Shown here: positions 18,119-41,072 of the stretch, piece by piece
Numbering within the stretch: the stretch's first letter is position 1
Layout of the letters: every line of letters starts with the position of its first letter
From: a virus
Length of the DNA: 41,340 nucleotides
Direction: 5' to 3' (one strand)
IMG/VR virus record: IMGVR_UViG_3300027779_000057
Location: 1 to 41,340 of that record
Made by a program: the position numbers and the translations under genes
Notes under the pieces: generated by a model
Seen by the model: only the letters and a program-made list of their open reading frames with translations
Told to the model about the DNA's origin: nothing
Database searches by the model: none

Positions 18119-19312
18119 TTATTTTCCTTCTTCTTTAGTTGATTTATCAGCATCTTCTGTTTTCTCTCCAGTTTCTTCTTCTCTTTTAATAGAAGTAGAT
18201 ATATTCTCTAATTGAGTAAATTCAATTGGTTGAATAGTTACAAAGTATAAATCAAGGTTAATCTTATTGAATGATAGTATTTCTTCAAACCCATCTAATA
18301 AACCGTCTTGTAATGGCTTAATAATTACGTTATCCATTAATACAGCAGCTGTTCTTAATTCCTCAGCATTGTTACCAAATCCAGTATTATCTTTAATACC
18401 TAATAATATTGGTGATACAATACCATGTCCTAACATAATCTTCTGTGTAGCTTCATCACTCATAAATTGATATTGAGCATGAGCATCAGGTAAATGTATA
18501 GGTTGGATATCAGCAGCAGTTTCTTGACTATCATTAAAGGCTAGTATAAACTTACCAGCATTAGATGATCCAGAAAACTTATCATATATCTTTCTTTCAA
18601 TCATTTCTTGTGTTTCAGCATTAGGTACTCCATTATTAAAGTTCATTAATAACGTAGGTTGTAACCCTTGCTTAATATTGTTAATATGATAATTAGAAAC
18701 TTCTTCTTCTAAGTTAGCATATTGTAAACATCCAGTATAATCAACTGGAGAGTAATAATAAAAACCTGATCTATAAGGCTTAAATATATATAACTCTACT
18801 TTCTGACCTTTAGTACCATTTCTAAATGTAGGTATTCTTTTTGGAGAATCGCTATGCTTTAATTCAGCCCATTTAGGATGATAGTAATAAGCAGCTATAG
18901 TTCCATTCTTATCGCATTTTTCAGCTCTAAGAGTTTCCATTGGATGGTGAACTATCTTAACTATTTTAGTTTTACTCTTATTATATATTAATTGAACAGC
19001 AGCTTGACCTAACATTTTATAATCATGTGCTACTCTCTTTATTTCTCTTTTCTTTAATAACAATTTCATCTTAGCATGAGCTTCAGGTTGAGTATCTGAA
19101 TCAGTACACTCTAATCCTCTACCAGCAATCATATCAACAATACCGTTAATACATCTGCTATTAGTAGGAGAACCTAAATATCTCGATATAAGAGTATCAA
19201 AGTAATCATTATTCTCACCATAAGATATCCATTCTTTACCTACAATCTCTTCCACTACTGGAGCTTGATATGCTGATAAATTAAGCATTCTTACATTATT
19301 ATTATTTTCCAT
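18119..19312 (-). CDS. Portal protein
   Basis: The dodecameric vertex through which DNA enters and leaves. 397 residues: an N-terminal wing (ISYGENNDYFDTLISRYLGS, NSRCINGIVDMIAGRGL), a clip/stem region (EEEVSNYHINNIKQGLQPT) and a C-terminal helical crown (LGIKDNTGFGNNAEELRTAA, a portal hallmark). The acidic/basic tail is Glu/Lys-rich. It heads the portal-connector-lysis operon behind the 19340 late promoter, far from the terminase. Confidence 0.88.
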   Translation of the reverse strand: MENNNNVRMLNLSAYQAPVVEEIVGKEWISYGENNDYFDTLISRYLGSPTNSRCINGIVDMIAGRGLECTDSDTQPEAHAKMKLLLKKREIKRVAHDYKMLGQAAVQLIYNKSKTKIVKIVHHPMETLRAEKCDKNGTIAAYYYHPKWAELKHSDSPKRIPTFRNGTKGQKVELYIFKPYRSGFYYYSPVDYTGCLQYANLEEEVSNYHINNIKQGLQPTLLMNFNNGVPNAETQEMIERKIYDKFSGSSNAGKFILAFNDSQETAADIQPIHLPDAHAQYQFMSDEATQKIMLGHGIVSPILLGIKDNTGFGNNAEELRTAAVLMDNVIIKPLQDGLLDGFEEILSFNKINLDLYFVTIQPIEFTQLENISTSIKREEETGEKTEDADKSTKEEGK

Positions 19313-32032: not shown

Positions 32033-32647
32033 TTACTTTGAGCTTAAGATAGAAGTAAGTTCCTCTATCATTTTTAATGCAGCTAATTCTTCTGAAGAAT
32101 ATTCAGGTGATGATTCCAATGATTTTTCGTCTAGGTTATCTGTAAAGAACCCCTCAATTGAAAAGCCTTTAACAGCTCCCATCTTAACGTAATCATTCCA
32201 TATCTCATCATTATTTACTTTGACAGATACCATCCATGTTCCTACAGGTAAACTCATATTGTATTTACGAGATTTATCATTTAGTTCATCTTCTATAATC
32301 CAAGATTCAACTACAGTAAGTCCTTGTACATCTACTTCGTGTTCTAGTGTACTATTAGATTGGTTACCATTCATTAAGAATAACTCAGATGCTCTTCTTA
32401 CAGTATCCTTACTAAAGAATATGTAATATTCACCTTCTGCGTTTCTTCTAAGTATCTTTCTATCAGGAACTAAAGCAGCTCCCATAAGTATTCTTTTTTC
32501 TATGTCCATTGAAGCTAGTTCAACAGTGTCTGCTTTAAGAGCTATAAAATTCTCCTCAATAGCTGGATTTTCAACTATACTAATAGCTTCTATTCCATTC
32601 ATTTCTTGAGTCTCATCTATAAATAGCTCAAATATGTTATCTTCCAT
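32033..32647 (-). CDS. XkdF-like prohead protease
   Basis: 204 residues of the XkdF type (putative serine protease of PBSX-like phages): GIEAISIVENPAIEENFIAL start, MGAALVPDRKILRR, then the conserved HEVDVQGLTVVESWIIED, LPVGTWMVSVKVND-type block and VKGFSIEGFF. These enclose a candidate His103/Ser site. It would mature scaffold and capsid inside the prohead. Unusual place: between the tape measure and adhesin genes, with its own late promoter. Confidence 0.85.
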   Translation of the reverse strand: MEDNIFELFIDETQEMNGIEAISIVENPAIEENFIALKADTVELASMDIEKRILMGAALVPDRKILRRNAEGEYYIFFSKDTVRRASELFLMNGNQSNSTLEHEVDVQGLTVVESWIIEDELNDKSRKYNMSLPVGTWMVSVKVNNDEIWNDYVKMGAVKGFSIEGFFTDNLDEKSLESSPEYSSEELAALKMIEELTSILSSK

Positions 32648-32705: not shown

Positions 32706-34805
32706 TTAGTCTTCATCAAAAGATGCTTGACCTTGTATGTTACTATCTAATTGTTGTTGGTTAGTAATATCAGCAGATACTACGTAAGCTTGTACAGGTT
32801 GCCCTAAAGCACCAGCAGTAACTTGAGCAGCTTGATTCTCTCCAGTTGATCCAACTAAATTGAAGTCAAATGTCCTACCACCATTACTACCACCAGAACC
32901 ACCACTACCAACTTTATTCTTTTTGTTGATACTAGTTCCCCATATACTAGCAATACTAGCTCCAGCTCCTACAACTGTTTGTATTTTATCTTTTACATAC
33001 ATAGCACCAGATGCAGCAAGAGCAGCTGGATTACCAGCAGCAGCTACGTTTCTAATATCACGTGCAGTCTTATTAGCCATCATTTGCTTGTTAGCATTAA
33101 TAACTACATCAGCAGTACCAGCTCCTTTAGCAATCAATAAACCAGCTTTCTGAATACCTTCATTATCACCAGCTATAGCTTGTAATGTATTACCAATAGT
33201 TTTAGCGTAACCTAAGTAATCTTGTATTATCTTTTGTTTATCAGCATAATGTTGATTATCTCTAGTTAACTCTTCTTCTTGTATCTGATATTGAAAGTCA
33301 GCTAATTCTCTAGCAGCTTCCATTATAGATACCTCATTACCACCCTCTACAGCAGCATCTAAATTCTTAGTCAATGACTCTTCCTTTATCTCATTAGCTC
33401 TTTTGATTCTCTTCTCATTCCATTCATTTAATACATCATCACCAGCAGTATCTAATCTACCTATTATGTTTAATATATCGTCAGCCATTATCTCATAAGT
33501 AGCTCTGTCTGTTTCAGCTTGTTTAAACTTCCTTTGCTTCTCAAAGTTATCTATAATAGCTTGTTTAGCAATACCGAAATCTTGTTCAGCTTGTATCATC
33601 TCAAGGTCAAATGCTCTTTGAGCTCTTTTAGCTTCAGCATATTCATTCTTCTTACCTTTTATAGATATTAAATAAGCATCTAATCTAAGTTTCTCTTTTT
33701 GCTTGTAACTTTCGTACTTATTTTCTAGTTCTTCTTCAATATTCTGCTCATCTAAAGCAAGTAACTCCTGTTCATTTTCTATACCTATAAGAGCCATCTC
33801 CATTTTCTGTTTCTGTATATCAGAGAACAAATCTAAGTATTTAGCCTTAAATCTTTTTGCTTGAGCTAATGATTTACCAGTTACCTTAACTTCTTCCTCT
33901 TCAAGCCCTTTAAGTAACTCTAGATACTCAGCAGTAGCTTTTTCTCTTGCTTCAAGAGCTTCATTTCTGTTTCCTATAGTTGCAGAATAGTTTTCAAATC
34001 CAACAAATAACCTCTCCCCACTTTCAATTTCACCAGCTCTTTTAGCAGCACGTTCATACTCTGTATTTTGAGTCATAATCTCAAATTCCTTCTCTCTAAG
34101 TGCTAATTCTAACTCTTTTTGTTTTCTAAGCTTCTTTATGTTTTCTATCTCCTTTTCTTTATCTCCATTAGCATCTTTTATCGCTTTTCTCATAGCTTTA
34201 TCAGTTCTAGCCAATCCTTTAGCAATAGCCATTCTCTTCTCTTGATTATCACCAACAATTAACATTTGTTCTTCTAGTAATTTAATAGAAGTAATCTGAT
34301 CTTTTAATGATTCATTCATATCATCAACATCTTCAGCACCTTTCTTCATTCCACCAGCAAAATAATCAACAGCAGCAATTACAGCTTGAAATGCTATCAA
34401 TATACCAATCGGACCCATCATTGCACCTCTTACAGCCTTTAATGCTCCACCAAATCCTACTACTTTACCAGTAGCTTTATCGACTTTACCTCTTAACTGG
34501 AAGAATTGTGTACCCATTTGAGACAAGTTATTCGCAACACCACGTATACCGTAAGGTGCATCCGAAATAACTCTACCAAATTCCAAAGATACAGCAGTTG
34601 CTCCACCTGTAGCAGCACTAACTCCTTGAGTAGCTTGTGCATTTTGATTTAACGCAGTAGTATTTTGTTGAACACCACTTGTCATTCTATCCATAGCTAC
34701 GTCAGCATCTACGAAAGCTTTAGTTAATCCTTGTATCTTTACTTTACCATTATCGGTATTAACCTTAATAGTAAACGACTTAATTACATCACTACTAGTT
34801 GCCAT
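32706..34805 (-). CDS. Tape measure protein
   Basis: Sets tail length and enters the host envelope. 699 residues: N-terminal region with SLEFGRVISDAPYGIRGVAN, a hydrophobic segment (MGPIGILIAFQAVIAAVDYF, about 130-149), a long charged coiled coil (about 165-520) and an Ala/Gly-rich C-terminus with membrane-active helices and GSGGSGGSNGG. All are hallmarks of tape measures. The length suggests a siphovirus-type tail of roughly 100 nm (general rule of thumb, about 0.15 nm per residue). Confidence 0.9.
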   Translation of the reverse strand: MATSSDVIKSFTIKVNTDNGKVKIQGLTKAFVDADVAMDRMTSGVQQNTTALNQNAQATQGVSAATGGATAVSLEFGRVISDAPYGIRGVANNLSQMGTQFFQLRGKVDKATGKVVGFGGALKAVRGAMMGPIGILIAFQAVIAAVDYFAGGMKKGAEDVDDMNESLKDQITSIKLLEEQMLIVGDNQEKRMAIAKGLARTDKAMRKAIKDANGDKEKEIENIKKLRKQKELELALREKEFEIMTQNTEYERAAKRAGEIESGERLFVGFENYSATIGNRNEALEAREKATAEYLELLKGLEEEEVKVTGKSLAQAKRFKAKYLDLFSDIQKQKMEMALIGIENEQELLALDEQNIEEELENKYESYKQKEKLRLDAYLISIKGKKNEYAEAKRAQRAFDLEMIQAEQDFGIAKQAIIDNFEKQRKFKQAETDRATYEIMADDILNIIGRLDTAGDDVLNEWNEKRIKRANEIKEESLTKNLDAAVEGGNEVSIMEAARELADFQYQIQEEELTRDNQHYADKQKIIQDYLGYAKTIGNTLQAIAGDNEGIQKAGLLIAKGAGTADVVINANKQMMANKTARDIRNVAAAGNPAALAASGAMYVKDKIQTVVGAGASIASIWGTSINKKNKVGSGGSGGSNGGRTFDFNLVGSTGENQAAQVTAGALGQPVQAYVVSADITNQQQLDSNIQGQASFDED

Positions 34806-34944
34806 TTCTTCTTAGTTTAAATTGTTGTTTTATATCGCTCCAATTTAGAGCTAAATTATATTTTCCTTTAGCGAATGCTATTTCCTCTGACGTAATGTCA
34901 TCAGAGGATTTTAGCAATTCAACTATTTGTTTTAAATGTATCAT
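34795..34944 (-). CDS. Hypothetical protein before tape measure, 49 aa
   Basis: ATG 34944 to TAG 34797-34795, overlapping the tape-measure start by 11 bases. A soluble helical protein with SEEIAFAKGKYNLALNWSDI and a basic end. Its ATG is part of a dispersed element (minus TTTAATATGATAC). Position before the tape measure suggests a small chaperone, but it is only an inference. Confidence 0.65.
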   Translation of the reverse strand: MIHLKQIVELLKSSDDITSEEIAFAKGKYNLALNWSDIKQQFKLRRNGN

Positions 34945-38554: not shown

Positions 38555-39052
38555 TTATAATTTTATTAATTGTTCTTTAATATCAGCAGCATAACCTTCC
38601 ATAAGGTCTTTACCTATTTGTTCTTCTAATTCTTTATATACTCTATCGTATACTTTAGCTCCAGTATTACCAAATCTCTTAATCAATCCTCTTTTCTTAA
38701 TAGATTTAGCTATAGCAAATGCCATACCTCTCATAGCTCCTAGTGAAGTATCTCCACTGTCAGGTCTAACACCTTTCATATTAGCCCAGTCCATTATGTT
38801 CTTAATATAAGCTTTACTTATCTTAGAGTATCCTGATTGAGCAATTCTACTTCCTTCATCAATAGCACCACCATACTTAGCATTAAGTACATCAATACTA
38901 CCTTCAACTATTTTAGTTTGTATGGAAGCAGCTAACTCACCACTAGCATGTAAACCATCACTAAGTAGTTTTTCTCTTACTTCATCAGCAAAGTATTCAC
39001 CTACTCTTTCTAGAGCAAGTTGCATGTTTTTTGTTTTCAGTTTAGCAGTCAT
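38555..39052 (-). CDS. HK97 gp10-like tail completion protein
   Basis: Caps the tail so that it can join the head. Shows ASGELAASIQTKIVEGSIDV, YGGAIDEGSR and RGMAFAIAKSIKKRG, the usual pattern (ligand Ser-Gly-x-L-x-x-S, edge strand, E-x-G). Start chosen at MTAKLKTKNM (39052), which overlaps the previous gene by 11 bases. The longer reading from 39085 would overlap it by 44. Confidence 0.75.
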   Translation of the reverse strand: MTAKLKTKNMQLALERVGEYFADEVREKLLSDGLHASGELAASIQTKIVEGSIDVLNAKYGGAIDEGSRIAQSGYSKISKAYIKNIMDWANMKGVRPDSGDTSLGAMRGMAFAIAKSIKKRGLIKRFGNTGAKVYDRVYKELEEQIGKDLMEGYAADIKEQLIKL

Positions 39053-39530
39053 CGTCTTCTCCCCCATCTCCTTTAGTAACCTCATTAGGTACTACTAAAG
39101 ATAATGTACAAGACCATCCAGCTAATGTATTAGCAAACCTATCTTTAAATGGTTCTGCTGTTAATGATTCATCAGTCTGTAATAAGCTGTCTCTTAAACT
39201 ACCTCTACTTAAGTTAGCGTGTATTCTTTGTAATACTGATAGTTGATTATTAAGTATGTCTTGTAGGTTACCATTACCATAAAAGTAATCGTACTCATCT
39301 ACTTGTAGATTGTTCTCATCTAATATATCCATACATAGTATGTTTAGATTAAATTCAATAGTAGCTTCATTAATTACAGCATTCTCGATATTCATATGTG
39401 CCAATGGAAAGATTGTAGTCTTATCCAAATCAACATCTGTTATATCACCAAATGAAACTGTATTAGTAAAGTCACCACTTCTTATGAAGTCCTTAACATC
39501 ATCTAATAATTTGTATACGTTATTTGTCAT
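39042..39530 (-). CDS. Tail protein (putative), 162 aa
   Basis: Start set at MTNNVYKLLDDVKDFI (39530), because the stretch before it (39535-39633) is the frameshifted end of the previous gene, which stops at 39537-39535, 4 bases before this ATG. The pattern FGDITDVDLDKTTIFPLAHM and LNNQLSVLQRIHANL resembles a conserved tail-terminator-like protein of Bacteroidetes phages. The acidic Cys tail (GGEDDDC) is unusual. Confidence 0.7.
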   Translation of the reverse strand: MTNNVYKLLDDVKDFIRSGDFTNTVSFGDITDVDLDKTTIFPLAHMNIENAVINEATIEFNLNILCMDILDENNLQVDEYDYFYGNGNLQDILNNQLSVLQRIHANLSRGSLRDSLLQTDESLTAEPFKDRFANTLAGWSCTLSLVVPNEVTKGDGGEDDDC

Positions 39531-39534
39531 TGTA

Positions 39535-40328
39535 TTAATTTTTATTTTGAGCTCGTTTAATAAGAGCGACCTCGACTCTATTTTTATCTTTTTCGAATTC
39601 AAGTACAAGGAGTGCCCTGTGTACATTGAGTTTTACTGCATCATCGATTTTACTTGCATCTTCTTTAGCCAAAGAGTAAATTGATTGAAACCATCCGTAC
39701 TTGTCTCCGAAATTGGATTGGATACTAGTTCCACTGCCTTGACTGCCATCTGAAGAGAAGAGGCTTGTGTAAGTTTCAGCAATTGATTTTGCAAACGTCC
39801 CATAAAAGACATAGCACCTAGTACTACATCAATCGGAGCATCTAACATATGTTCGCTAAACTTAGCTGAACCTTCATATTCTTCTACCTGATATTTATCA
39901 CCTATGATTCTAGTCTTAGGTCTAAACAATACAGCCATAGCTTGATGCCAAGTATCAACTGTATTTATATACTTATCTACATCTACATATTCACCAAAAG
40001 TTAAATCATCTAATTTAGGTATCATCCCAAATTCTATACTAACATCTTTAGCATCTACTAAAGTAAAGGTTGGTATGTGCTTATCGAACTCCTCATTAAA
40101 CATTTTGTTAATATGGTTGATTACATTATCAAACGAATGCAAAGGTATTTTATTTGTGTCCTCTATACTAAGATCACAGAAAGTCTGTAGCATCTTAATC
40201 TTTAAGAAGTTCTCGTCTGTAGATTTAGATTCTTGATACTTGTTAAGTATCTTAATCCAAGACTGATATTTCCTTAGAGTTATACCCTGTAAATTAACAG
40301 GTATATTTATATTAAATTCTTTTATCAT
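39535..40328 (-). CDS. First late gene, tail-assembly-chaperone-like, needs -1 frameshift
   Basis: The frame from ATG 40328 stops at 39635 (231 aa), but its last about 30 residues look random. The -1 frame is open from 39828 to a stop at 39537-39535 and encodes FGDKYGWFQSIYSLAKEDAS followed by helices (LNVHRALLVLEFEKDKNRVE), a C-terminus I recognise from Bacteroidetes phage tail proteins of this class. A -1 shift between 39831 and 39635 would give about 263 residues. No start codon exists in the -1 frame. Programmed frameshifting is normal in tail-assembly chaperones, but no canonical slippery heptamer is evident and a sequencing indel is possible. Confidence 0.75.
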
Positions 40329-40640: not shown

Positions 40641-41072
40641 GGGGGAGATATCGTTACCTTTCCATTCTAAATATATTACTAAATTTAGATCACTGTATTT
40701 AGTTGAAAAGATATTTGAATATATAGATACCATTAGGTATCATATTAAACACGAGTAAGTACTACCCCTCATATTAAACACGAGTAATCAAATGTGTTTG
40801 AATTCTTAGCCATTAGGTAATCTCTTCTGGCTACGTTCATATTACGTCAATATGTCACATATATACTAAAATCATATGACAGTATGACACCAATACATAT
40901 ATCACATGTAAGACACGTACTATATAGCATGTCTGTATATACCTTATATATGTTATAGTCTCTGTATAGGGCTGTAATAGGGCTTAAATTAAGTATTGAA
41001 ATACCTTCCTATATATACCCTATATCTCTACCTTAGTATGTTACAATAATAATGCATATCATTATATGGTAC
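40640..41072. other. AT-rich gene-free region with CATATG/TATGACA repeats
   Basis: No credible gene on either strand. Several short repeats are present: TATGACA twice within 40876-40888, related TGTCACATATA, and ATTAGGTA twice (40732, 40812). Such a region between the end of one transcription unit and the start of another could hold the replication origin or packaging site, but no specific signal is recognised. Confidence 0.35.
40736..40787. repeat. Two dispersed elements with a longer shared flank
   Basis: TCATATTAAACACGAGTAA occurs at 40739-40757 and 40769-40787, a 19-base direct repeat with 30-base period. The first 13 bases are the family element; the CGAGTAA flank is unique to these two. 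Confidence 0.75.

Follow-up and report, generated by a model that had tools for sequence, protein, structure and literature searches.

A candidate two-product gene with a −1 frameshift in the late block of an IMG/VR virus, and the T run at its junction in relatives

The first late gene and its two reading frames

The window, as the whole stretch of DNA analyzed is called here, is the 41,340-base IMG/VR virus record IMGVR_UViG_3300027779_000057 (positions 1 to 41,340). The first gene of its late block lies on the minus strand (39633..40328) and encodes, in the 0 frame, a 231-aa protein followed by a stop codon; residues 1–174 form the N-terminal part (N-part) that this protein would share with a longer product. 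A second frame, at −1 relative to the first, is open for 97 codons (39828..39538) and then closes with the TAA at 39537–39535, giving a minus-strand reading frame (39535..39828) that is limited upstream by a stop at 39831–39829 and overlaps the 0 frame for 196 nt (39633..39828, minus strand). A first-pass annotation, made from the letters of this DNA alone, had proposed a −1 frameshift here and placed the −1 stop four bases before the next gene, which is exact: the spacer is TACA, and the next ATG is at 39530. The gene that follows (39042..39530, minus strand) encodes a 162-aa protein of PHROG 30964, with P12024S_41 as its counterpart in Nonlabens phage P12024S. The −1 frame had also been described as lacking any start codon, which is correct for ATG and GTG, but a single internal TTG does occur, at 39672.

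Across the window's genes, about 16% of the codons read in the −1 frame are stops, and the mean open run of this frame is 5.2 codons. The longest such run is that of the 231-aa gene (65 codons inside the gene, 97 in total; the runner-up in the window has 38), and from the observed stop rate the chance of so long a −1 open run is about 4e-8. Counted from the conserved slip point, the −1-encoded tail (39538..39807, minus strand; FYGTFAKSIAE...NKN) comprises 90 residues rather than the 60 first reported; 57 of its codons lie within the 0-frame ORF, and some 31–33 lie past the 0-frame stop. For structure prediction, the two parts of the putative fusion were folded separately. The tail is predicted to be helical, with modest confidence. 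The AlphaFold (AF2) model of the 0-frame protein has an overall pLDDT of 81, with values mostly of 83–95 at residues 11–180 that fall to 38–68 thereafter; it is good to about residue 180 and poor past the slip point, in agreement with the poor C-terminus noticed earlier for the 231-aa form. The peptide FSEHMLDAPIDVVLGAMSFMGR belongs to the 0-frame product, and FSEHMLDAPIDVVLGAMSFYGTFAK to the predicted fusion product.

Further along the same strand, a 699-aa protein (32706..34805) is the probable tape measure, named from its sequence character and position without a curated match; its counterpart is P12024S_49, and it corresponds to PHROG 30292 (677 aa). The start of this gene is overlapped by a 49-aa ORF (34795..34944, minus strand), and P12024S_48 (46 aa) occupies the same place and carries a similar motif (AKG+Y....NW...K), so the product appears to be a small conserved protein adjoining the tape measure. 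If this ORF is counted, the 231-aa gene stands at the stated distance of five genes from the tape measure. Immediately downstream of the tape measure is a head-maturation-protease-like gene (32033..32647, minus strand; PHROG 3017 and others), and the portal gene (18119..19312, minus strand) is found much further downstream, an arrangement of head and tail genes that is unusual. The contig end (40340..41340) consists of about 1 kb of AT- and GT-rich DNA without ORFs of more than 54 aa, in which CATATTAAACACGAGTAA is repeated near 40740–40790.

Conservation of the −1 tail among relatives

Viral contigs were scanned with the tail, which yielded first two relatives at 72%, later more distant ones, and then more than 500 candidate IMG/VR relatives, of which 80 were kept per scan. 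We read 83 loci singly, and gathered 121 distinct sites with a tail profile from IMG/VR contigs and the cultured Nonlabens phages P12024S and P12024L. The link to these two phages was reached via an 846-aa tail protein, as tblastn with either frame against the phage collection gave no match; a search of prokaryote genome contigs likewise found no relative. In all 121 distinct sites, as in the window, the tail is in frame −1 when the N-part is taken as frame 0 (same frame, none; +1 frame, none), and the arrangement of a 0-frame N-part and a −1 tail also recurs in all of the 83 loci read singly. Conservation of the tail starts at the junction (FFLSFR..I...Y..LF...NFGRKWGWYQSIY.LA.GD...). Among close and medium relatives, none has the ending of the 231-aa form while lacking a −1 tail. 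One continuous frame occurs at none of the 121 sites, but is present in distant proteins of the Duneviridae and Helgolandviridae.

The tail has evolved as a protein. In the part that does not overlap the 0 frame, comparison of the window with its relative L002 (67% tail identity) gives a dS of 0.68 and a dN of 0.19 in the −1 frame, a ratio of about 0.28, while the other frames of the same stretch give dN/dS values above 1 and contain stops in at least one sequence. These patterns of substitution indicate that the −1 tail is real coding sequence under selection. A further selection marker, the doubly synonymous base at +6 of the site, was set aside because it is variable in 6 of the 121 sites.

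The same data bear on whether the break between frames might reflect an assembly error or a decaying pseudogene. The window is a single assembly, and such a break is exemplified by Flavobacterium phage 6H, in which gp10 is frame-broken and its homologue in phage 2A is intact. The layout is, however, common to three lineages of one clade (the window, L002, and L009), two of which were each seen in two contigs, and to all relatives; agreement among independent contigs of three lineages excludes an assembly error, and a dN/dS well under 1 speaks against decay. We regard this explanation as hardly credible.

The T run at the junction and the proposed slip

At the aligned position of the frame junction, nearly every relative has a long run of T: T9 in 109 of the 121 sites, T10 in ten, and no long run in two, which belong to the L002 and L009 lineages. 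The window also lacks it, with T4 remaining, a feature absent from the first-pass annotation. Outside the window's clade, each of the 119 sites holds the in-phase heptamer T_TTT_TTT within a run of at least nine T, including L142, L165, and L173, whose runs have lost their 3′ part and extend further on the 5′ side. The corresponding codons are TCT TTT ATG in the window, GAT TTT ATG in L002, and AAT TTT ATG in L009, so that the tetramer T_TTT (39804–39807 in the window) is kept in all three, and a canonical heptamer (A_AAT_TTT) occurs within the clade in L009 alone. No heptamer of the form X_XXY_YYZ is present in the window's overlap; the sole such string in the gene, TTTGGGA at 40031, is outside it. 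A search with the DNA pattern of the T4 site as a means of finding further clade members returned 13 stretches, among which the only relatives were contigs already known, the other nine being unrelated.

In a tree of 32 fusion proteins, the window clusters with L002 and L009 (support 99/96), and the sisters of this clade, L095 and L096, both have T9. The T4 state is thus derived, one loss of the long run being enough to account for it, and the simplest history for these sequences is that the run was lost once and the −1 tail retained. The position of the slip is further constrained by P12024S and P12024L, in which the −1 frame opens merely 7 nt upstream of the codon that starts the T run, so the slip cannot be far upstream of it. 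Folding of the 77 nt downstream in nine sequences revealed no RNA structure better than shuffles (z of −1.1 to +0.9; the clade's own sequences gave +0.9, −0.3, and +0.2).

The location of the run at the junction also bears on whether the tail might be translated independently as a small protein, from TTG or a non-standard codon, with no frameshift. The TTG at 39672 could serve as such a start, and P12024S_39 is annotated as its own 55-aa ORF, but the −1 frame is conserved from the slip site onward, which lies 45 codons before this TTG, and no ATG, GTG, or TTG precedes it; because this TTG lies inside the conserved block, it cannot be the start of the conserved tail. Nor would separate translation give a reason for a T run exactly at the frame junction in 119 relatives, and we consider it very improbable.

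We propose instead that one mRNA yields two proteins. The majority of ribosomes would stay in the 0 frame and produce the 231-aa protein, and a minority would slip by −1 at T_TTT_ATG (39801..39807, minus strand), which aligns with the T9/T10 run of the relatives outside the clade. At this site, the P-site tRNA-Phe would re-pair from TTT to the overlapping TTT, after which the −1 codon TAT would be read and a 264-aa fusion produced that ends in the 90-aa tail, predicted to be helical. In those relatives, slippage would occur at the T9/T10 run (T_TTT_TTT); with the run decayed to T4 in the window's clade, it would there have to involve a single tRNA (Z_ZZN) rather than a tandem pair. Z_ZZN, the minimal form of a −1 motif, and the model case of lambda G/GT are both covered in PMC5009743. 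Since T_TTT_ATG is non-canonical and no RNA structure was detected in the 77 nt downstream of it, its efficiency may be low, or a stimulator not seen here may assist it. A second tetramer of the minimal type lies 12 nt downstream (T_TTG, 39792..39795, minus strand); it is found clade-wide and appears as T_TTA in many relatives, and this shared T_TTR is, judging from the sequence, a weaker candidate for the slip site. Taken as a whole, a gene that makes both the 231-aa protein and the 264-aa fusion by P-site slippage on T_TTT, most likely as a counterpart of the lambda gpG/gpGT tail-assembly chaperones, is the reading that we favor, with reasonable though limited confidence.

We infer that it is the ribosome that slips, and not RNA polymerase. 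An RNA polymerase that added one U on the T9/T10 run would give an identical −1 product, with the window's clade having changed the level of recoding or using another signal. The presence of at least nine T in 119 of 119 sites, even in runs truncated on the 3′ side, could be read in this way, and it is plausible for the T9 relatives because nine bases is the run length at which selection against slippage shows in many bacterial genomes (PMC1088944). Run length does not discriminate between the two mechanisms, since T7 suffices for ribosomal slippage in the relatives and the T's on either side are mostly dictated by the two protein sequences. The four T of the window are far too few for such slippage, yet its tail is kept under selection, which makes transcriptional slippage an improbable account of this gene. 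A rather unlikely variant, but one we rate above that account, is that a large unannotated family recodes at an obligatory T9/T10, possibly by RNA polymerase, and that the window's clade has moved to ribosomal slippage on T_TTT; the level of recoding would then have changed with the protein product kept.

Possible function and comparison with known systems

The product of the 0 frame falls in a family without an assigned function: the 0-frame protein matches PHROG 32199 with an E-value of 6e-11, and 30 of 30 relatives match this PHROG too. No named chaperone family was matched in Pfam, PHROGs, or NCBIfam, and sequence searches of Pfam, NCBIfam, and PDB gave no useful match. In Foldseek comparisons, the strong matches are exclusively to uncharacterized phage proteins, including that of P12024S gene 38; the named ones are weak, among them a viral "Tail assembly chaperone protein" (E 0.12, probability 0.77) and the HK97 tail assembly chaperone 2ob9_A (rank 4, E 1.4, probability 0.15). 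Chaperones of the lambda type bind the tape measure and the major tail protein and are not found in the virion. We propose a role like that of gpG/gpGT on the basis of the predicted two-product architecture (a common N-part, extended by a −1 shift), which is supported by the frames of the window and of the 121 sites, together with protein size, the helical tail, and the presence of the gene in a tail gene module. A tail-assembly chaperone was also the earlier assignment; its −1 shift is strongly supported, and the chaperone label is weakly supported, given the weak fold matches, the lack of a named family, and the distance of five genes to the tape measure. This putative role fits the predicted features and is our best guess at a function.

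Single-frame proteins from the Duneviridae and Helgolandviridae (Flavobacterium phages 2A and laban6-1, Cellulophaga phage Ingeline, and Polaribacter phage Leef), whose 259–306 aa are close to the length of the fusion, share homology with the N-part, as indicated by profile alignment (hhalign probability 94.6, equaled by none of 60 shuffles). In these phages the N-part and a C-terminal extension comparable in size to the −1 tail are encoded in one continuous frame with no T9 run, and in Ingeline, as in the window, the homologue precedes the tape measure. The fusion scores higher against these proteins (101, columns 6–254) than does the 0-frame protein (87) or the N-part (78). A separate hhalign of the fusion against Duneviridae proteins was set aside as proof of tail homology, since a shuffle control traced its signal to the N-part. 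The tail compared with the Duneviridae C-terminus is not significant with four sequences (36 of 60 shuffles as good), and the tail alone, with ten sequences, scores weakly above 60 of 60 shuffles, which is suggestive only of homology with the Duneviridae extension. If that homology holds, the fusion would represent the common full-length protein, and frameshifting would belong to a single branch. The gp10 gene of phage 6H (NC_021867, 10047–10927) was considered as a further frameshift gene and then rejected, because the ORFs of 2A and laban6-1 (293–301 aa) are continuous; the break in the 6H record is probably a sequence error.

These distant proteins raise the possibility that the two-length product is another tail or neck component and not a tail-assembly chaperone. 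The Duneviridae homologue is encoded as one long ORF, so that a second length may be dispensable; in addition, the gene does not adjoin the tape measure, the Leef homologue lies upstream of the portal gene, and the match to the HK97 chaperone fold has an E-value of 1.4. Short and long products paired through a −1 shift, with a small helical extension at the C-terminus and a location in the tail block, are nevertheless a hallmark of G/GT, and the weak named structural matches include tail and tape-measure chaperones, so that we consider a different tail component possible but would not expect it.

While frameshifting of this kind is already known, the family itself, which is present on more than 500 IMG/VR stretches and in two cultured phages, its strict T9/T10 site, and a clade that appears to work without T9/T10 are new. 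Flavobacterial-phage papers that we searched mention neither frameshifts nor tail chaperones, and no paper in the open-access literature was found to link tail-chaperone frameshifting to these phages, which is weak evidence of novelty. Predictors that look for a heptamer would miss the window's site. The clade amounts to a natural experiment, with the same fusion encoded at T9 in the sisters versus T4 in the window, and allows one to ask what minimal sequence makes a working −1 site in these hosts, and whether RNA polymerase or the ribosome slips.

Among cultured phages, P12024S (genes 38–39) and P12024L (genes 40–41) are the nearest known counterparts. They share with the window the PHROG 32199 protein in the 0 frame, the −1 tail, and the position of the gene relative to the genes that follow, and differ in having T9 instead of T4 at the junction, a −1 frame that opens just 7 nt before the site, and a location of the gene after the terminase. 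Their records split the gene into two hypothetical proteins, with the tail as a small ORF and the frameshift unannotated; since a second product is not recognized there, the long form is missing from annotation. Each pair (P12024S_38–39, P12024L_40–41) most likely represents one frameshift gene with a T9 site. Bacterial transcriptional slippage at runs of 9A or 9T, as in Shigella mxiE (PMC1088944), resembles the relatives in run length and would give the same product, whereas at the T4 of the window this mechanism is not expected. The model pair gpG/gpGT of lambda (PMC5009743) differs in several respects: the window's site is T_TTT_ATG, with no canonical heptamer in the overlap; the overlap is 196 nt, with 57 0-frame codons after the slip; five genes separate the pair from the tape measure, within the same block and on the same strand; and sequence comparison detects no relationship between the protein and any named chaperone family. 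The lambda pair and the window's gene would have in common an N-part present in both a short 0-frame and a longer −1 product, a small C-terminal extension (predicted to be helical in the window), and a place upstream of the tape measure in the tail block.
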